IMG/VR virus record: IMGVR_UViG_3300009011_000018
Span: 1-51,375 of that record
Length of the DNA: 51,375 nucleotides
Direction: 5' to 3' (one strand)
Origin: a virus
The notes under the pieces are model-generated. The model searched no databases. It had not been told where the DNA came from and was given only the letters and a program-made list of their open reading frames with translations. Positions within the stretch are counted from its first letter, which is position 1. The number at the start of each line of letters is the position of its first letter. Positions 3,940 to 19,629 of the stretch are shown one piece after another. A program made the translations under genes and the position numbers.

Positions 3940-4563
3940 ATGGAAATGACAATTACTCGTGCTTTAGCTGAATTAAAAATGCTTGATAAACGTATTAACC
4001 GTACTATTAGCGATTCAATTTTATGTGGAATTGTAGTTGGCAAGAAACCAATGACAGGCTATCAAAATATTGAAGAGATTGAGCAAAAAGCAAAATCAGA
4101 CTATCAAAGTGCGAATGATTTAATTTCTAGACGCAACAAGATTAAGTCAGCAATTGTTGTTTCAAATGCTACAACTAATGTGGAAGTAGCTGGTGAAAAA
4201 ATGACTGTGGCAGAAGCAATTGAACGTAAAACTAGCATTGACTATGATAAAAGTTTATTAGCAAGAATGAAAAAACTCTATACCCACTTTGTTAATCAAG
4301 TAGATACAGTCAATGCTGAGGTGCAGATTCGACTAGACAGACAATTAGAAGTTTTATATGGAAAAGAAGGTAAAGTTAAAGCTGGTGAAAACACTGATTT
4401 AACTAAGCTTTTCTTAGAGGAAAATGAAGCAAAATTTATTGATCCTCTAAAGATTAAAGATAAAATTAAAGAATTAACAGATAGAATCGAAGATTTTGAG
4501 AATGAGATTGACTTTGTTCTTTCGGAAATTAATACAATTACACGAATTACTATTGAAGATTAA
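3940..4563 (+). CDS. DIP1984-like / septicolysin-like small helical protein
   Basis: The ATG at 3940 follows AGGAGGAG at 3924-3931 with good spacing; the TTG one codon earlier is also possible. The 207-residue protein is almost entirely helical. It has an N-terminal LAELKMLDKRINRTIS segment, a central NDLISRRNKIKSAI segment, a MTVAEAIERK segment and a C-terminal coiled coil. This order of blocks resembles the DIP1984 family, whose biochemical role is not well established. No signal peptide or membrane segment is present. The gene stands alone between two untranslated stretches. I am moderately sure of the family resemblance and make no functional claim. Confidence 0.6.
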   Translation: MEMTITRALAELKMLDKRINRTISDSILCGIVVGKKPMTGYQNIEEIEQKAKSDYQSANDLISRRNKIKSAIVVSNATTNVEVAGEKMTVAEAIERKTSIDYDKSLLARMKKLYTHFVNQVDTVNAEVQIRLDRQLEVLYGKEGKVKAGENTDLTKLFLEENEAKFIDPLKIKDKIKELTDRIEDFENEIDFVLSEINTITRITIED

Positions 4564-4990
4564 TCATAAGTAAACATCTTGTTAGTTAATCGAAAACTGA
4601 TAAAACTAAACGCCCTTTTGGGGATTGGGTCAATATCCCCTACTTTTACTTTATTCCCAGCGATGGATGATATAAAACTTAACCTGATACGGGTATGTAT
4701 TAAGATACATAACAAAGATGGTAAAAGTTCAAGGTTTAAATCTCAAGGAATCAAAGTTAAAGTCTTAAGTTTCTTTATTATCAACGTTTAGACTTTAAAG
4801 TTATAAATATCGATTAAATCTAGGAGTAATGGCTTTGAGTGGTTGTTTATTGACTCTATTGGTTGCCACCTAGCAGATTAGCTAACAGCACTACTTATGA
4901 CAATGATAGCGTAATGTGGTGCGAGTCCACATATTGTCTTTATAACTTACATACAAATATAAAAATGGATTTCCAAGGAGGAAAATTATT
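4564..4990 (+). ncRNA. Candidate structured RNA region upstream of the HU gene
   Basis: A 427-base stretch without a credible gene; the ATG-less 70-codon frame at 4579-4791 is not supported. It contains many complementary segments. In the 5' half: GGGGAT/ATCCCC around a 9-base loop (4621-4641), ACTTTTAC/GTAAAAGT bracketing a hairpin TATGTAT-TAAG-ATACATA near 4695-4712, and TTAAAGTCT/AGACTTTAA ending about 4797. The 3' half (4798-4948) folds into its own domain, described separately. I do not recognise a known RNA family. It could be an independent RNA or the 5' leader of the HU mRNA. The base pairing is seen directly; transcription and function are inferred. Confidence 0.45.
4798..4948 (+). 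ncRNA. Closed multi-helix domain with a tRNA-like acceptor/T-arm
   Basis: The outer helix AAGTTATAAA (4798-4807) pairs with TTTATAACTT (4939-4948). Directly stacked on it, GACAATG (4899-4905) pairs with TATTGTC (4932-4938), and TGTGG (4915-4919) pairs with CCACA (4927-4931) around the 7-base loop TGCGAGT. The internal arm pairs 4817-4824 with 4869-4879 (GCA bulge), 4830-4833 with 4865-4868, and 4837-4840 with 4853-4856. GCTA at 4881-4884 could pair with TAGC at 4907-4910 as a pseudoknot. The 7+5 base-pair stack and the loop resemble the acceptor/T-arm of tRNA, but there is no D arm, anticodon arm or CCA end. Confidence 0.4.
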
Positions 4991-5266
4991 ATGAACAAAA
5001 CAGAATTAGTAAATGCGGTGGCAGAATTAACAGGATTAACCAAAAAGGATGCAGCAGTAGCAGTTGACGGTACATTTGAAGCAATCAAAGAATCATTAGC
5101 TAAAGGCGAACCAGTAAAATTAACTGGATTTGGTACATTCGAAACTCGTGATCGTGCAGCTCGTAAAGGACGCTCACCTCAAACTGGAGAAGAGATTGAT
5201 ATTCCAGCGACTACAGTAGCAGCATTTAAAGCAGCGAAAGCCCTAAAGGAAACTGTAAAAGGTTAA
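4991..5266 (+). CDS. yonN: HU-type DNA-binding protein
   Basis: A 91-residue, full-length bacterial HU. It begins [13 protein letters not shown], carries the typical GFGTFE turn, and has the DNA-binding arm with the [16 protein letters not shown] signature, ending [15 protein letters not shown] dimers bend and compact DNA. In SPbeta a phage HU homologue (yonN, HU 2) lies at the same place after yonO, which supports the assignment. The ATG follows AAGGAGG by 9 bases. It is preceded by the structured region and followed by the junction motif. It could serve as a phage chromatin protein or packaging/replication accessory factor; that role is inferred. Confidence 0.95.
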
Positions 5267-7278: not shown

Positions 7279-8481
7279 ATGACTGAATTAAATCACTTAT
7301 TGAAACATGACTCAGAAAGTTTTCGTGATTTTCATATCCGTTTATTTGAAAATAAAGATGAATATCAAATTGACTCTCATAAGATTGCAGAAATTCTAAA
7401 TAAAGAATACGGTAGCAGTTATGATGAAAGTAAATGGCGAAAAGATTACGCTCAATTCTGTAAATGGCGAGATTATCTAGTTAATAAGAATCTAGATGAG
7501 GAAATTGTTAAGAAGCATGAAGAAATTCGTATCGAGTCTGAAAAAGAAAAGATTCGTAAACAAGACCAACGTAGAGAATATCTAAAGTTAATTAGAGAGC
7601 AAGCACGTATTGAACATGTACGTGATGAAATGATTAAAGAACTACATAAGATTACTAAAGCTAAACCTATGCAATGGTTAAAACGTAGCATCTCCCCTTC
7701 TACTGATGGTAGTGAAGGATTGTTAATTCTTTCAGATTTACATTTCGGCTTATTCGCTAACAACTATTGGAATAAGTTTGACAATGAAGAGTTTAAGAAC
7801 AGAATGAATAAATTAATCTCTAAAACAATCGAACATGGTAAGACTCATAGAGTTAAGAAATTACACTTATTCATGATTGGCGATTTGATTAACGGCTTGA
7901 TTCATCAAGTAACTAGAATTGTTAATACTGAAGATGCTGTTTCTCAAACTATGAGCGTTTCTGAAATTCTTGCAGAAGTAATTACTACTCTAGCAAACGA
8001 GTTTGATGAAGTGAAAATCTACAACTGTCGTGGGAACCATGATCGGGTTACGCCAAATAAAAAGGATGAAATTGCAAAAGAAAGCTTCAATGATTTGATC
8101 CCTTGGTATCTTAAGACTCGTCTTGTTAACGTAGAAAATATTGAATTTATGGTTAATGAGTATGATGACGAAATTATTGTTGCTGAAATAGCAGGAAATA
8201 CTGTCTTTGGCGTACATGGACATAAAGATCGTATCAATACTATTGCTCAAAACTTAATTATGATGACTAAGAAATTCGCTCAGTACATCGTTATGGGACA
8301 TTATCATCACCATGAAGAAAAAGAAGTTCATGATGTGGAAGTTATTATTAACAGTAGCTTTTCCGGTGTAGATGAGTACGCAAAAGATATTCGTGCCACT
8401 AGTAAAGCAGCTCAAAAACTTATTATCTTCACTAAAGAAGATAAGCGTTTATGTACATATAATATTTTATTAAATACATAA
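7279..8481 (+). CDS. yonJ: Calcineurin-like metallophosphoesterase (YonJ/SbcD-like)
   Basis: A 400-residue protein. The first 140 residues are charged and helical, and may form a DNA-binding region. The C-terminal two thirds hold the metallophosphoesterase motifs in order: SDLHFG with D153 and H155, GD with D202, RGNHDR with N253, H254 and D255, VHGH with H313 and H315, and GHYHH with H341 and H343. All expected two-metal ligands are present, so activity is likely. Relatives include SbcD/Mre11-type nucleases and other phosphodiesterases. It is translationally coupled to the small gene before it. Its place ahead of packaging genes suggests DNA processing, but the substrate is not shown by sequence. 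Confidence 0.85.
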   Translation: MTELNHLLKHDSESFRDFHIRLFENKDEYQIDSHKIAEILNKEYGSSYDESKWRKDYAQFCKWRDYLVNKNLDEEIVKKHEEIRIESEKEKIRKQDQRREYLKLIREQARIEHVRDEMIKELHKITKAKPMQWLKRSISPSTDGSEGLLILSDLHFGLFANNYWNKFDNEEFKNRMNKLISKTIEHGKTHRVKKLHLFMIGDLINGLIHQVTRIVNTEDAVSQTMSVSEILAEVITTLANEFDEVKIYNCRGNHDRVTPNKKDEIAKESFNDLIPWYLKTRLVNVENIEFMVNEYDDEIIVAEIAGNTVFGVHGHKDRINTIAQNLIMMTKKFAQYIVMGHYHHHEEKEVHDVEVIINSSFSGVDEYAKDIRATSKAAQKLIIFTKEDKRLCTYNILLNT

Positions 8482-8490
8482 ATTAATAAA
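8478..8490 (+). promoter_or_regulatory. Recurrent junction motif ATAAATTAATAAA
   Basis: A one-mismatch copy overlapping the stop codon of the phosphoesterase gene, 30 bases before the ClpP-like gene start. Confidence 0.4.
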
Positions 8491-8519
8491 TTGTCTCTAT
8501 AATAATGGGAGGTCTATCT

Positions 8520-9104
8520 ATGGCTGAAATGAGCTACATATATCCTGATAGAATTCAAGAAGAAATGAAATTGAACTCAGCTCTAAGAGACAGACGTATC
8601 TTTATTAGCGATGAAGTTGATAGAGAATCAATGTTTAAAGCCTGTTATCTCCTAGATAGATTGGTAGAGCTTGATAAAAAAGACGGTAATAAACCTGATA
8701 TAGAGATAGTTGTGGATAGCTATGGTGGAATTATTTATCACGGTTTAGCTTTAATTTCGAAGATGATTTCTATGCAAAAGAATGGTTATAGAATTATTGC
8801 AACAGTTAACTCTGTGGCAATGAGTATGGGTTTCATGATCCTTATTTGTGCTAGTCATAGACGTGCTTTGGAACACTCTCGTCTTATGTGTCATCAACCT
8901 AACTCTGGAACTTGGGGAACACTACAGGACATGGAAGAATCTCTTGAGGAAACAACTAATTTATGGAATCGACTTAAGAAATTAATTATTGAGTATACAG
9001 CTATTACTAATGAACAACTTGAAGATATTAAGACTCGAAAATATGATTGGTTCATGTGGAGTGAAGAAGCTAAAAAACTAAATGTAATTGATGAAATTAT
9101 TTAG
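8520..9104 (+). CDS. ClpP-like serine protease
   Basis: The ATG at 8520 follows GGGAGGT with normal spacing; the ATG at 8505 overlaps that site and is less likely. The 194-residue protein has the ClpP fold order: IEIVVDSYGG as the oxyanion strand, VAMSMGF with nucleophile S102, MCHQP with H125, and KYDWFMWSEEAKKLNVID with D176, matching the D-x-x-M-S-x-x-E-A-x-x-x-G-x-I-D ending. The full triad is therefore present. No signal peptide is seen. It lies upstream of the terminase rather than next to the capsid gene, so it may act with host Clp ATPases or on virion precursors; neither is shown. Confidence 0.85.
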   Translation: MAEMSYIYPDRIQEEMKLNSALRDRRIFISDEVDRESMFKACYLLDRLVELDKKDGNKPDIEIVVDSYGGIIYHGLALISKMISMQKNGYRIIATVNSVAMSMGFMILICASHRRALEHSRLMCHQPNSGTWGTLQDMEESLEETTNLWNRLKKLIIEYTAITNEQLEDIKTRKYDWFMWSEEAKKLNVIDEII

Positions 9105-9517: not shown

Positions 9518-10006
9518 ATGGAACTGTCAAGAAAAGAATATGTTTCTACAGAAGGAGAAAAATTCAATAAAAAATATGAAATCGATCAGATTGACGAATT
9601 CAGCTTAAAAACTCTATTTAATTTACAATATGACTTTATGAGAACTCCAGCCGAACATGTAAAGAACAGAGCTGAAATTCTAAAAATGATTGAGATGATT
9701 AAGTCTAACTTAAAGTTAAAACCTACTCAAGAAGAGGTTAAGTCAGAGAGTAAATTTAAAATTGGGATTATCTGCTCTGTCGAGGCTCAATCAAATGAAA
9801 TGTATAGACACCTTTCTACAAGCTTAAAAGATGTTACGAAAGGAATAAATACTAACACTCAAAAAGAAATACAAACTAAGACTTCAATTTATACGATTCT
9901 AACAAAAAGCAGCCAGCTCCGTGGCAGAAGATTTCATGAATATTGGAACTTAACAGGAGACGCGCAATTTGAAAAAGACGTACTTCGATATTGTGTAATG
10001 AGATAA
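9518..10006 (+). CDS. Unknown phage protein
   Basis: I choose the ATG at 9518 (162 residues) over the GTG at 9509. Both have only a weak purine-rich upstream site (GAGAGCGAG), so the start is uncertain. The product is soluble, helical and basic in its second half, with segments SLKTLFNLQYDFMRTPAEHV and HEYWNLTGDAQFEKDVLRYC. I see no signal, membrane segment or known motif. It is followed by a strong hairpin and then the probable small terminase gene. Confidence 0.65.
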   Translation: MELSRKEYVSTEGEKFNKKYEIDQIDEFSLKTLFNLQYDFMRTPAEHVKNRAEILKMIEMIKSNLKLKPTQEEVKSESKFKIGIICSVEAQSNEMYRHLSTSLKDVTKGINTNTQKEIQTKTSIYTILTKSSQLRGRRFHEYWNLTGDAQFEKDVLRYCVMR

Positions 10007-10134: not shown

Positions 10135-10977
10135 ATGTCTATTACAATAAAAGACGATCAAAAATTATGTGTCAAATGCGAGACTCCACGTTCAAGAAAA
10201 CGTGCCTTTTATCAAAGCACTTCTCGATGGCATAGTAATGGATTGGTTCCATACTGTAAAGATTGCCTTAAAGAAACTTTAGATGAAAACAATATCAACT
10301 CTGTTAAAAATGTACTTAGACAAATCGATAAACCTTATATAGAAGATTTGTGGACGAGAGCTGTAGAACATGAGAAAGAAACACTTGGAACCTATCTTTC
10401 TTCTCTGAAAGTAGGAAGTAATAAAGATAAAACTTATGATGACAGTGAATTTATAAATTTAGGATTTAAAGACTCAGAACAGCTTGAAGATGAGCCTCAG
10501 CAACCCACTGACTTTAAAGTAACAAATGAAATGAAACGAGTATGGGGTAATAATTTATCTGATATGGATATAGAATACTTGGAAAATTTTTATTTTGAAT
10601 ATAAAAACAACTATTCTACAGACACTCCTGTGCAACGGAATCTTTACCGTAATATTGCTAAAATCCATTTGCAAGCCGAGAAGGAACTAGACGGAGGTCA
10701 AGTTAAAACGTTTAAAGAGCTTATGGAATTATCGTCCAAGTTACATAATGACGGTAATATTAAGCCTATTCAATCGACTGGAGCAAATGACGATAAAGGA
10801 TTATCTGCATATGGATTATGGATAAAAGAAGTTGAATTGAATGAACCTTGTGAGTACTTTGAGAAAAAACCTGTTTATGAAGATGTGGATGGATTCAAGA
10901 AATACATTGACAAATGGTTCGTCCGTCCATTTAAAAACATATTTAATATTTCAAAAGACTTTGATGTGGAAGATTAA
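10135..10977 (+). CDS. Probable terminase small subunit with zinc ribbon (YonG-like)
   Basis: A 280-residue protein with an N-terminal zinc ribbon (C12-x2-C15 and C41-x2-C44), an acidic linker, and a helical C-terminal region with NEMKRVWGNNLSDMDIEYLE and later QRNLYRNIAKIHLQAEKEL. Small terminases recognise the packaging site and stimulate the large subunit. The assignment rests mainly on its overlap with the large terminase gene (TAATG at 10974-10979) and on synteny with SPbeta yonG. A zinc ribbon is not typical of classical small terminases, so another packaging accessory role is possible. AAAGGAGG precedes the ATG. Confidence 0.6.
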   Translation: MSITIKDDQKLCVKCETPRSRKRAFYQSTSRWHSNGLVPYCKDCLKETLDENNINSVKNVLRQIDKPYIEDLWTRAVEHEKETLGTYLSSLKVGSNKDKTYDDSEFINLGFKDSEQLEDEPQQPTDFKVTNEMKRVWGNNLSDMDIEYLENFYFEYKNNYSTDTPVQRNLYRNIAKIHLQAEKELDGGQVKTFKELMELSSKLHNDGNIKPIQSTGANDDKGLSAYGLWIKEVELNEPCEYFEKKPVYEDVDGFKKYIDKWFVRPFKNIFNISKDFDVED

Positions 10978-11850
10978 TGGCTGGACACTCTAATTACCAA
11001 GTAGACAGAAACAAAAACTCAAAGGGACAGAACCACTTAAACAAGGTTCAAAACGTAACTAAAACAAAAGACAATATGAGTCGTGATGATAAGATGCGTA
11101 CTCAAGTAAAAAAGTGGACATCGTTCTATCGACTTAACACTCATAGGTTCATAGAGCATTATTTTGGGATCGAACTATTTTTCTTCCAAAAGATACTTTT
11201 ATATTTTATGAATTTAAACACTTTTTTCATGCTAGTTGCTGCTCGTGGTCTATCAAAATCATTCATAATCAGTATATTTTGTTGTGCTCGTTGTGTGCTG
11301 TATCCTAATACAAAGATTGTAATAGCATCTGGACAAAAATCACAAGCGAAATTGATTATCACAGAAAAAATTGAGAAAGAACTAATGCAATATCCTAACC
11401 TAGCTAGAGAAATAAAACAAATAAAATCTAGTTCGAATGAAGCGAAAGTTGTATTTTGGAATGGCTCAACCATCGAAGCTGTAACTTCAACTGAAGGTAG
11501 TCGTGGGTATCGTTGTAACGTTCTAATTCTAGAAGAGTTCCGTATGATTGACGAAAACATTCTTAAAACAGTTTTAAAACCGTTTTTGAATGTATATAGA
11601 CAACCGCCATATTTAAAAAAAGAAGAATATAAACATTTAACTGAGGAAAACATTGAGATTTATATTAGCTCTGCTTTTTACACCTCCCATTGGATGTGGA
11701 AGTCTATGCAAGCGACACGAGATGCAATGCTCAAAGGGAAAGAATCAGTAATATTTTCTCTAGATTACTTAACCTCTATTCATCATGGCTTACTTAGTAA
11801 GAAGCGTATTGACCGTGAGAAACAAAGCTCAGATTTTGATGAAATTGCAT
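10977..11850 (+). CDS. Terminase large subunit, exon 1 (ATPase part)
   Basis: The first 291 codons plus one base of the large terminase. The Walker A block AARGLSKS is at 88-95 (a typical phage variant of the P-loop), and Walker B VLILEEF at 182-188 has catalytic acids E186-E187. TSTEGSRGYR in between is the expected adenine/coupling region. The open frame continues to a TAA at 11883-11885, but those last codons belong to the intron. The exon ends ...GAAATTGCAT; joined to exon 2 it reads ...DEIAF-LMEYENLMYG, which fits large terminases. The spliced protein would have 593 residues and power DNA packaging at the portal. Confidence 0.92.
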
Positions 11851-12877
11851 TTGTAAAAAAGTGCTTTACAGTGGTGACGCTGTAAATAAACTTTGTGAAC
11901 CCTATTGTTCAGGGGTGTGGTCATACTTATGACTGCTAACGGGGAAACCTCAGCACTTAATGGTGGTGGCAATCCCGTGCCAAGCTTAATTTATATATCG
12001 AAAGGAGAATGTCATTATGGCTATGACATCCAATATATACCTAATAACTAATAAAATTAATGATAAGAAGTACATAGGTCAATCTATCAATATAGAAGAA
12101 AGATGGTATCGACATAGAGCTGATTATCAAAGAATACAAGATAAGTACCTTTACAGAGCTATGAGAAAATATGATTTAGAGAATTTTAAGTTTGAAGTTT
12201 TAGAGACAGAAATACCTATTGACTGTATTGCGGAACATGAAAAATTTTGGATAATTAAGTTAAATACCAAAGCCCCTAATGGTTATAATATGACCGATGG
12301 AGGAGAAGGTTCGTTTGGGCGAGTTGTTTCTGAATCGACTAGAGAAAAGATAAGTAAAGCTAAAAAAGGAATTGCTTACGATGATGAGCATAAAGCCAAA
12401 CTGTCCAAAATTCACAAAGAGCGTATGAGTGATCCCGAAAAGAGAAGGCATTTAAGCGAAAAACTTAAAGGGGTTCCGAAAAACAGTACAAAATATAAGG
12501 AGTATTGGATGACACTTACTAAAGAAGAGCGCATGAAAAATGTATCTCTTGCAATTGAAGCTCGTAAAAAAAATATAATTATGTGTGATATCGAAGACGT
12601 TGGCAAGCACATCAAAGAATTCGAAAGTGTTAGAAGTGCTGCTAAATGGATAAGAGAAAACACTAGTTATGAGAAAGCTGGACATCAAAATATCTCTAAA
12701 GCATGTAAAGGGAAAATAAATTATGTATATGGCTACAAATGGATATATAAACAAGAAGGTGTAACGACTATCCCAAATGGGAGTAGAGCAGAAGATGAAC
12801 TACTGTTCGAAGCGCAAAGCATCTCAAATTGAGATGATGATATAGTCTGTGCCTATGGATAACATAGGAATTACACG
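11851..12877 (+). other. Group I intron (IA type) in the large terminase gene
   Basis: A 1027-base intron. P1: exon GCAT pairs with GTGC (11861-11864), giving the U-G pair at the 5' site. P2: TTACAG/CTGTAA (11865-11884). P3: CTGCT (11933-11937) with AGCAG (12787-12791). P4: CGGG near 11941 with CCCG near 11977. P7: GACTAT (12766-12771) with ATAGTC (12842-12847). P7.1: CCC/GGG around AAAT, typical of IA introns. P8: CATCTC/GAGATG (12820-12836). P9: CCTATG/CATAGG (12852-12868). It ends at G12877. Joining the flanks restores the terminase frame exactly (874 + 908 bases). It carries a homing endonuclease gene. Confidence 0.9.
12017..12832 (+). CDS. Intron-encoded GIY-YIG homing endonuclease
   Basis: A 271-residue nuclease with the GIY-YIG signature at its N-terminus (IYLIT at 7-11, KKYIGQS at 17-23), the metal-binding Glu in IAEHEKFWI (E73 or E75), and NUMOD-type DNA-binding repeats (SESTREKISKAKKG, SEKLKGVPKNS, and a C-terminal NISKACKGKINYVYGYKWIYK helix-turn). 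It cuts intronless terminase alleles to spread the intron. AAAGGAG lies 9 bases before the ATG. The last 20-odd codons run into the intron core (P7, P7.1, P3), so protein and ribozyme share sequence. Its reading frame is independent of the terminase frame. Confidence 0.93.
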   Translation: MAMTSNIYLITNKINDKKYIGQSINIEERWYRHRADYQRIQDKYLYRAMRKYDLENFKFEVLETEIPIDCIAEHEKFWIIKLNTKAPNGYNMTDGGEGSFGRVVSESTREKISKAKKGIAYDDEHKAKLSKIHKERMSDPEKRRHLSEKLKGVPKNSTKYKEYWMTLTKEERMKNVSLAIEARKKNIIMCDIEDVGKHIKEFESVRSAAKWIRENTSYEKAGHQNISKACKGKINYVYGYKWIYKQEGVTTIPNGSRAEDELLFEAQSISN

Positions 12878-18525: not shown

Positions 18526-18996
18526 ATGGAACAAACTATTAAAGTAGCACGTTACCGTACAGCACCTTACATTGTAAACTTCCCTTTTAACGGTGGGCAT
18601 AAGACATACTCATGGTCAGGGAGTAAAGGAAATAAAACAGATATTAAACCCTTACCACAAGAAGTAATCGACTATTTAATGATGAATAGCGCATGTTTTC
18701 GTTTAGGAGAATTAGCTATCATTGAAGATACAAAAGAAGCAAAAGAAGTAGTTGAAAATATCGATGAGGTTGAAGAGTATAAAAATAATACACATTCTAA
18801 AGAACAAGTAGTAAAAATCCTTGAAGGTAATTTCATGAAAATGAAGTCTGAACTAGGTAAAGTAACAAATAAAAGCGAAAAGAAATTTTTCATTGATGTA
18901 GCAAAAGAAATCCAACTTGATAGCACATCTAAACAGAAATTCTTAGCTGAGTGGTTTGGTGTTAAACAAGACATTTTATTTGCAGATGAAGACTAA
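18526..18996 (+). CDS. Unknown head/neck protein
   Basis: A 156-residue protein beginning MEQTIKVARYRTAPYIVNFP, with a beta-rich first 60 residues, an acidic linker (about 65-85), and a helical C-terminal part containing KKFFIDVAKEIQLDSTSKQK and FLAEWFGV. CAGGAGG precedes the ATG. It follows the capsid terminator and is close to the next gene (13 bases). The position suggests a head-tail joining or neck-assembly role; I do not recognise the family. Confidence 0.6.
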   Translation: MEQTIKVARYRTAPYIVNFPFNGGHKTYSWSGSKGNKTDIKPLPQEVIDYLMMNSACFRLGELAIIEDTKEAKEVVENIDEVEEYKNNTHSKEQVVKILEGNFMKMKSELGKVTNKSEKKFFIDVAKEIQLDSTSKQKFLAEWFGVKQDILFADED

Positions 18997-19009
18997 GAGG
19001 TGATTAAAA

Positions 19010-19405
19010 ATGACCTCTTATGACCAATTATGGACAGTATTTCTCACTAACTGTAAGATGTCTGCAAAAGACTTGCCTCAGACAAATGAAAAAATCTATG
19101 ATTGCATCTATAATGCCGTTCTTTACTTTAATAACAAGCTTCGATTAAACGTTGGATGTGTAGATGGTGAAGAACGATTAAGTGAAGAACTATCAAATGA
19201 TCACCTTTTAATTTTAGCTCATATCATTAAATTAAACATTTTGGAAAATGAACTTATCCACTTCTCAACATTATTTCAGCCTTTTCAAAAGGATATTGGA
19301 ATAAAGAATTTTAATGCTCAATTGAATGTATTAGAAAGACGAGTGGAGAATCAAAAAGAATTCATTGGTCGCCTTATTGTGAACACAGAGGAGGACTACT
19401 TATGA
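19010..19405 (+). CDS. Probable head-tail connector protein
   Basis: A 131-residue, nearly all-helical protein starting MTSYDQLWTVFLTNCKMSAKDLP, with a central NDHLLILAHIIKLNILENEL helix. Small helical proteins directly after the capsid gene in siphophages are usually adaptors that bind the portal (HK97 gp6/SPP1 gp15 type). AGAGGTGA precedes the ATG. Its last codons overlap the next gene at 19402. The role is inferred from size, fold class and position. Confidence 0.55.
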   Translation: MTSYDQLWTVFLTNCKMSAKDLPQTNEKIYDCIYNAVLYFNNKLRLNVGCVDGEERLSEELSNDHLLILAHIIKLNILENELIHFSTLFQPFQKDIGIKNFNAQLNVLERRVENQKEFIGRLIVNTEEDYL

Positions 19406-19629
19406 GTGAAAGTAATGCAGTCTTCACGCAAAATGAGCTACAAATTTTCTGCACTAGAATGAGCAAGAAAAACAATTCTGTTTTGTATAAGTTAGAAAAG
19501 TATCTCGATAAACCTCTAATCTCAGACAGTGAACTTGTTGAAATTAGAGATATAATCTTAACAGTTAGCGCAGAGATATCTAGGCTGCCTTCTAACCTTA
19601 TAATAGGTGATAAAGATGAAAGATTATAG
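19402..19629 (+). CDS. Small unknown connector-region protein
   Basis: A 75-residue helical protein (MSESNAVFTQNELQIFC...). GAGGAGG lies 6 bases before the ATG, and the gene overlaps both neighbours by a few bases, which shows tight translational coupling in the head-tail completion block. No motif is recognised. Confidence 0.65.
   Translation: MSESNAVFTQNELQIFCTRMSKKNNSVLYKLEKYLDKPLISDSELVEIRDIILTVSAEISRLPSNLIIGDKDERL

Follow-up and report, generated by a model that had tools for sequence, protein, structure and literature searches.

Among the few large RNAs described from phages are ROOL and GOLLD, whose roles are a long-standing open question. PMC12286853 describes ROOL and GOLLD as phage-encoded RNAs of 659 and 800+ nucleotides (nt) that lie near tRNA islands and contain pseudoknots and disordered linkers, with tRNAs situated in the linker of GOLLD. 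Here we describe an RNA, almost certainly real and conserved in its structure, that lies 3′ of a gene for a DIP1984-like protein. Our best reading, to which we assign a probability of about 0.6, is a phage ribonucleoprotein scaffold built with this protein.

The DNA studied, a 51,375-base virus record from IMG/VR, is referred to here in full as the window. Its left end carries, in order, a YonO-like RNA polymerase (62% to Bacillus phage BUCT082), an unknown ORF, the DIP1984-like gene, a gene-free stretch at 4564-4990, HU, a PIN-PhoH protein, a YonK-like ORF, and a metallophosphoesterase. The gene-free stretch is bounded by the TAA of the DIP1984-like gene (4561-4563) and the HU start at 4991; the original prediction took it to be without a gene, and indeed the only ORFs that overlap it are short mechanical ones. 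ARAGORN detected no tRNA or tmRNA in the stretch, Rfam gave zero matches at gathering score, and subthreshold matches to RAGATH-32, MIR8024, and caiA were taken as chance. Further, blastn of the 427 bases against the phage collection returned chance-level pieces only and no similar DNA. Elsewhere in the record, the YonO-like single-subunit RNA polymerase (206-2977) has the catalytic motif DFDFD against the DFDGD consensus of its relatives (alignment A1), and the terminase large subunit is possibly split into ORFs 10977-11885 and 12017-12832, with a gap of ~130 bases that could reflect a small intron, an insertion, or a frameshift.

Folding of the single sequence bears out the original prediction in part. 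It had held that pairing is denser than in a simple spacer, but the fold has a z of −1.62 against dinucleotide shuffles, is equaled by 7 of 100 shuffles, and resembles the fold of the minus strand (z −1.87). The density argument is therefore insufficient alone, and relatives are needed. Several of the complementary segments are real (P0, P1, P2, P3, and the last domain at 4899-4938), but they are not arranged as adjacent closed domains: P1 encloses nearly everything, and P2 and P3 form a pseudoknot that is invisible to a nested fold. Similarly, the last domain lacks the exact 10-base-pair helix attributed to it and consists of two 6-bp helices stacked on each other, GACAAT/ATTGTC and ATGTGG/CCACAT; 9 bases are left unpaired on one side. 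The proposal of a new structured RNA is itself supported, by compensatory changes in homologues and by a blind covariance-model match on the window, and the structure is counted as real because relatives show it, not because of the single sequence.

Among loci of YonO relatives, nhmmer identified L057 (E 1e-15) and L050 (E 4e-5) as homologues, each immediately 3′ of a DIP1984-like gene, and a motif scan of IMG/VR combined with a profile search yielded L062 and L105, likewise after a DIP1984-like gene. A blast search with L062 led to Brevibacillus phage Jenst, Bacillus phage KLEB27-3, and Seunavirus phages including PVP-SE1 and 4MG; the same layout 3′ of the gene is present in Lysinibacillus phage LC76P1, Bacillus phages G and BM15, Dulem virus 39, and T5. 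Relatives 3′ of the DIP1984-like gene (PHROG 1491) are found in phages of Bacillus, Brevibacillus, Lysinibacillus, Lactococcus, enterobacteria (T5 included), Pseudomonas, and Vibrio, with a Deinococcus plasmid as one further type of carrier. No homologue was present in the loci of PhoH-gene relatives, and searches for related loci with the DIP1984-like and YonO proteins as single sequences returned none. In T5 (L211), stable RNAs such as RNAX, RNA1, and RNA2H are annotated (8285-8645, 9809-9980, 10839-11084, and 18849-19567), and the RNA 3′ of T5.085 is unannotated. In Jenst (L117), a skipping-rope RNA (2281-2358, 67.6 bits) lies between the DIP1984-like gene and the new RNA, with a BsrG match further on.

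The RNA is closed by a long helix (P1) and contains a P2/P3 pseudoknot, one small hairpin, and a series of imperfect 7-nt repeats (Table 1). From 5′ to 3′, the parts are the P1 5′ strand, GA, the P2 5′ strand within GAAAAC-NNN, a variable 5′ domain with the candidate pseudoknot PK1, the 7-nt repeats, the UCGAUAAAAU motif, the P3 5′ strand, the P4 hairpin, the P2 3′ strand, the P3 3′ strand, CU, and the P1 3′ strand. Since the P2 3′ strand sits between the two strands of P3 and the P2 5′ strand lies outside them, P2/P3 is a pseudoknot. PK1 was spotted by eye in the window, L062, L057, and L050, and corresponds to the place of RAGATH-27 in Dulem virus 39. Counterparts of P4 in other members, such as AGGG/CCCT and GCG/CGC, were likewise recognized by eye, the column scan for P4 being hampered by loop gaps. 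A helix CGAA/TTCG closing the repeats was a first idea; it is broken in other members (e.g., L157 and L191) and was replaced by P2, which has permutation support.

Table 1. Features of the DIP1984-like gene and the adjoining RNA in the window
Feature	Position	Strand	Pairing, content, or basis
DIP1984-like gene	3943-4563	+	PHROG 1491, E 1e-65 over residues 1-205 of 206
P0 5′ strand TCATAAGTA	4564-4572	+	Pairs with 4892-4900; optional P1 extension, predicted by the minimum-energy fold of the gene-free stretch
RNA core, P1 to P1	4579-4888	+	Descriptor score 51.3, above all 379 control segments
P1 5′ strand TTGTTAGTTAATC	4579-4591	+	Pairs with 4876-4888
Conserved GAAAAC motif	4592-4597	+	Overlaps P2 start; columns G13, A15, and A16 invariant in alignment A8
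P2 5′ strand AACTGATA	4595-4602	+	Pairs with 4857-4864; permutation support
Candidate H-type pseudoknot PK1	4612-4640	+	GCCC 4612-4615/GGGT 4627-4630; GGGGAT 4620-4625/ATCCCC 4635-4640
7-nt repeats (GTTCAAG GTTTAAA TCTCAAG ...)	4727-4808	+	Two blocks flanking TTTCTTTATT
Conserved joining motif TCGATTAAAT	4810-4819	+	Consensus UCGAUAAAAU; alignments A8 and A9
P3 5′ strand CTAGG	4820-4824	+	Pairs with 4869-4873; covariation
P4 hairpin	4837-4856	+	GAGT 4837-4840/ACTC 4853-4856; by eye in A8
P2 3′ strand TATTGGTT	4857-4864	+	Crosses P3, giving the pseudoknot; permutation support
P3 3′ strand CCTAG	4869-4873	+	Followed by linker CA 4874-4875 (CT in most members); alignment A8, covariation
P1 3′ strand GATTAGCTAACAG	4876-4888	+	Covariation
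P0 3′ strand TACTTATGA	4892-4900	+	Minimum-energy fold
tRNA-like minihelix	4899-4938	+	Acceptor-like 4899-4904/4933-4938; T-arm-like 4914-4919/4927-4932; without D and anticodon arms

Regions downstream of DIP1984-like genes were scored with structural descriptors. The first descriptor selected on P1 and P3, with P2 not used, and placed 48 of 79 regions above the best of 237 dinucleotide shuffles (45 of 76 with duplicates merged; the loci met twice are L105/L171, L057/L135, and L062/L132). In this strict set of 48 members, the P1-to-P1 span is 266 to 397 nt; it reaches 443 nt in Erwinia phage Ea35-70. With a second descriptor, which has a looser 5′ motif and includes P2 in its score, 61 of the 79 regions (58 of 76 with duplicates merged) exceeded the best of 379 controls, comprising 79 reverse complements and 300 segments taken from other parts of these loci. 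Regions below this line mostly have the 3′ core with a shorter P1. A third, looser descriptor, applied to 12 records picked along the hit lists, found a clear structure in 10 and no clear full structure in Astolliot and Konradin; the 24 controls reached 47.9, and the lower-scoring of the ten (ventosus and a B. velezensis plasmid, both 46.2) rest on layout, not score.

Because the strict members were picked by P1 and P3, the pair counts of these two helices are biased upward, and the weight is carried by P2, the controls, and the blind model. P2 was examined in 44 of the 48 strict members, leaving out three duplicates (L105, L135, and L132) and L182, which has a false P3. Its strands pair with a mean of 14.33 within their own RNA versus 10.01 ± 0.32 with swapped partners, the maximum over 2000 permutations being 11.64. 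Covariation was assessed in alignment A8, which holds 38 sequences after omission from the 44 of near-duplicates (L139, L144, L159, and L161) and of two members with odd loop lengths (L184 and L192). Over 24 pairs and 912 cells, 91.3% of cells are paired versus 59.3 ± 1.1% in shuffles, double-change cells number 292 versus 85, and both sides change in 21 of the 24 pairs. The covariation score is 0.857 versus 0.211 shuffled, with none of 500 shuffles as good, and sliding the partners leaves 29 to 42% paired and a covariation of 0.10 to 0.15. Among the helices used for selection, P1 is paired in 98.9% of cells over the 38 sequences and has double changes in all 12 of its pairs, and P3 has double changes in 4 of 5.

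The blind model, R1, covers 79 positions of the 3′ core and was built from 27 sequences that include neither the window nor its four nearest relatives (alignment A9, which is A8 minus eleven rows: the window, L062, L057, L131, L133, L154, L163, L171, L176, L180, and L202). In the window, R1 scores 51.5 bits at 4808-4887 (E 7.6e-9), and the second-best match reaches 10.3 bits. Searched against 18 whole records, it gives a single match in 17 and none in Ea35-70; 12 of 13 records outside the model are matched, PVP-SE1 and 4MG weakly (E 0.03 to 0.04). These results also bear on whether the element acts as DNA, for example as an iteron origin with the DIP1984-like protein as its initiator. Iterons are typically short direct repeats beside a gene, and such repeats are present here. 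The helices nevertheless covary by base pairing, the orientation relative to the gene is fixed, and 52 of 456 P1 cells are G-U (a share biased by a descriptor that allowed G-U), a pairing possible only in RNA of this strand; we give the DNA reading next to no weight.

The repeat tract has a well-defined period. Within up to 122 nt before P3 in the 44 members, identity at lag 7 is 0.439 versus 0.304 in shuffles (z 23.6), and lag 14 has a z of 17.5. The lag-7 signal is positive in each of the 44 members, ranging from 1.9 to 6.7, with z 2.6 in the window alone, and the same autocorrelation detects no 7-nt period in the 5′ part of the RNA. In 21 reexamined regions (19 of the set, together with Astolliot and Konradin), the best lag-7 segment is above the shuffled mean in every case. 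A period of 7 nt cannot be that of a reading frame.

In the window, the AlphaFold model of the DIP1984-like protein is helical (pLDDT 85.2, pTM 0.59, from 57 sequences), and the most conserved positions include many polar or charged residues (R64, K68, S74, N75, T78, T88, E91, E94, and K96); L170 was omitted from alignment A7 because of a stop within its reading frame. The protein's top structural match, 3kdq (Foldseek E 2e-3, probability 1.00), is a Corynebacterium diphtheriae protein of unknown function with 153 residues versus 206 and a weak sequence match (E 0.11). VIA-align gives it a Z of 10.2 and an rmsd of 6.8 over 151 aligned residues, which is above the unrelated rows but a middling Z for a helical model and no proof of kinship. 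No RNA-binding marker is among the listed fold matches, an absence that proves nothing. The name DIP1984 comes from the original prediction; PHROG 1491 is represented in 749 phage records, which mostly call the protein hypothetical or "tail fiber protein," and the latter, which is also the label of PHROG 1491, looks wrong for a 206-residue helical protein whose gene, in T5 and elsewhere, lies within or close to tRNA regions.

A type III toxin-antitoxin pair, with the RNA repeats neutralizing a toxic DIP1984-like protein, would likewise place an RNA with repeats next to the gene for a small protein. In ToxIN, long tandem structured (pseudoknot) repeats precede the toxin gene. The order here is reversed, and what lies downstream of the gene is a series of 7-nt repeats, not long pseudoknot units. 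ToxN is not among the listed structural matches of the DIP1984-like protein, although absence from that list is no exclusion. We regard such a pair as very improbable.

The association of the RNA with the DIP1984-like gene was examined independently of the protein with an IMG/VR pattern scan on the RNA motif only, which returned 46 loci. All 17 complete RNAs, in which P1 and P3 were found, have a DIP1984-like match 3 to 103 nt upstream. Gene and motif are both present in L243 and L264, which were missed by the helix test; the other 26 loci lack a DIP1984-like gene, and the weak helix scores of two of them (L231 and L239) are apparently chance (Fisher 1.6e-10, with L250 omitted as its contig ends 161 nt upstream). 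Similarly, among 299 genomes of the C. citroniae family, R1 matches 10, the protein profile matches 12, and 9 have both (Fisher 4.7e-14). On closer inspection the three protein-only genomes have the RNA downstream on the same strand at 24 to 34 bits, and of 10 loci inspected in this set, 9 have complete P1 and P3 helices. The sole exception in the 299 genomes is G293, with a decayed 3′ core of the RNA and no gene, apparently a remnant. R1 has matches in 12 of 18 loci with a DIP1984-like gene and in none of 23 loci that have YonO or PhoH neighbors but no such gene, indicating that the RNA follows the DIP1984-like protein and not HU or YonO. The location between the DIP1984-like and HU genes given in the original prediction is correct for the window, with the upstream gene as the constant partner and HU not.

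Two cis-acting readings can be weighed against this pairing. The RNA starts mostly 8 to 100 nt past the DIP1984-like stop, on the same strand and in constant order, as would a structured 3′ untranslated region (UTR) of the DIP1984-like mRNA that controls that gene through stability or through autoregulation by the protein on its own message. Other material can intervene between the two, however, namely, the skipping-rope RNA in Jenst and three ORFs in KLEB27-3; G293 keeps the RNA core without the gene, and a 3′ UTR would not usually be this large or have a pseudoknotted core, so that we consider this explanation quite unlikely. In the window the RNA lies directly before HU, where it might be a riboswitch-like leader. 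Against this, HU does not adjoin the RNA in most annotated relatives read, the downstream gene varies (tRNAs, a gyrase gene, and unrelated ORFs), and terminators follow the RNA in at least Jenst, BM15 (L183), and LC76P1, and by eye in AM11, making an HU leader extremely improbable.

Within 60 nt past the P1 3′ strand, 29 of 57 members have a 3′ signal, and 28 have none: 16 carry a terminator-like hairpin (counted without a shuffled control; KLEB27-3 is a further example), 10 carry a tRNA, and 3 carry a minihelix. L057, L133, and (by eye) L050 have the same kind of minihelix as the window, formed by other paired bases. ARAGORN did not call the one at 4899-4938 a tRNA, and the window shows neither the complete arms of a tRNA nor the tag ORF of a tmRNA; a tmRNA reading was dropped on the negative ARAGORN result and the topology. 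The shape of the minihelix is that of a minimal RNase P substrate, and it may therefore serve to trim the 3′ end of the RNA. Adjoining tRNAs are mostly 3 to 12 nt from the P1 3′ strand. tRNAs adjoin or lie near the RNA in many relatives, with none in the window. In six Lachnospiraceae loci (L279, L269, L270, L273, L276, and L277), a complete tRNA (Thr or Ile) is embedded in the RNA, separating the 5′ domain from the repeats.

The strongest challenge to a protein-dependent particle would be an assembly of RNA only, in which the RNA folds and multimerizes alone, as ROOL and GOLLD do, and the DIP1984-like protein is a neighbor or cargo. The setting, as described in PMC12286853, is alike (phage, pseudoknots, and linkers, with tRNAs close by in many relatives), and a tRNA is located inside the RNA in 6 of 10 Lachnospiraceae loci and is called there in 2 of 61 members of the DIP set. 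However, the RNA has no Rfam match to ROOL or GOLLD in the window and 11 relatives, is about half their size, and is paired almost absolutely with one protein gene. We judge an RNA-only assembly unlikely.

We favor the ribonucleoprotein scaffold, in which the RNA probably works with the DIP1984-like protein as a putative complex. It starts from results obtained here, namely, that the structure is conserved, that the repeats are periodic, that the pairing with the gene is strict, and that order and strand are conserved; from them we infer a separate transcript, binding by the DIP1984-like protein, and a function of any kind. The plus strand would give rise to a noncoding RNA of ~310 to 375 nt, transcribed together with the DIP1984-like gene or right after it. 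The long-range P1 junction, carrying the P2/P3 pseudoknot and the small hairpin, would form a core that sets the fold and end points, with the variable 5′ domain and a presumably single-stranded 7-nt repeat tract held between the 5′ strands of P2 and P3. Copies of the DIP1984-like protein could then line the tract, one binding unit per 7 nt; that the repeats act as a binding ruler for this protein is a tentative proposal, with slightly less than even odds. The particle would act in trans during infection. The position close to tRNAs in many relatives suggests a role in translation, tRNA handling, or protection from host RNA-cutting defenses, although translation or tRNAs as the target of the RNA is a speculative assignment that we hold to be doubtful. 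In its broadest form, the proposal is of an unrecognized class of ribonucleoprotein shared by phages, prophages, and phage-like plasmids from three or more bacterial phyla, T5 and phage G included, in which the protein polymerizes on a 7-nt ruler and the particle carries or shields tRNAs during the takeover of translation; this is conceivable, with the odds against it.

Textbook phages such as T5 and G carry, without annotation, a large structured RNA that almost always accompanies one protein family. Since T5 grows on E. coli K-12, the function, binding, and structure of the RNA can be tested directly. If the scaffold reading is true, a natural RNA with a strict 7-nt repeat and a dedicated protein would be an unusual case of RNA-guided protein assembly.

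Among known families, the nearest in Rfam is RAGATH-27 (RF03100), which passes its cutoff of 76.1 bits in Dulem virus 39 (77.2 bits) and in no other of 14 records. Its 86-nt consensus coincides there with the 5′ part of the RNA, comprising the P1 5′ strand, GAAAAC, the P2 5′ strand, and the PK1 region, and its best weak matches fall at the same place of the RNA in the window (14 bits at 4579-4641, E 0.945, short of membership) and in the L050 record (12.1 bits). RAGATH-27 models one hairpin only, without the P1/P2/P3 pairing, the 7-nt repeats, or the 3′ core, and it was not named in the literature searched. Otherwise the window and 11 relatives have no Rfam family for the RNA, so the statement in the original prediction that it could not be matched to a known phage RNA family stands for the window and is qualified by the 5′ domain of this one relative. 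No description of a DIP1984-associated RNA was found in the literature searched, mainly titles and abstracts of open-access papers; pieces of it may be present in large candidate lists, PMC8040213 among them. On this coverage, the full RNA family and its pairing with a protein appear to be new, and at most a 5′ fragment is already catalogued, as RAGATH-27.

The noncoding stretch between HU and YonK in SPbeta and BUCT082 has a similar neighborhood (YonO, HU, and YonK) but lacks a DIP1984-like gene and an R1 match, measures ~1.7 kb, and matches Rfam DUF3800-VIII in its 3′ part. The stretches of SPBc2 (L019, 3154-4834) and BUCT082 (L016, 7244-8961) are strikingly alike, with the 3′ part matching DUF3800-VIII at 47.5 bits, and have the appearance of a giant RNA of its own, preceded in BUCT082 by a stretch that is tRNA-like by eye, not by ARAGORN. 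Psychrobacillus phage Perkons (L018, 6614-7124) has a 511-nt noncoding stretch between YonO and HU without a DIP1984-like gene, and shares the 12-mer ACCTGACAAGAG with the SPbeta stretch.

The window combines P1, the P2/P3 pseudoknot, the 7-nt repeats, and a UCGAUAAAAU-type motif 3′ of a PHROG 1491 gene, the features of the DIP1984-associated RNA family. The ROOL and GOLLD models of Rfam are unmatched in the window and 11 relatives. As PMC12286853 portrays these two RNAs, the family resembles them in being a large phage RNA with pseudoknots, flexible linkers, and room for a tRNA inside, and tRNAs are close by in many relatives. It differs from them, on the same account, in its shorter span of 266 to 443 nt, its constant protein gene partner, and its tract of 7-nt repeats.
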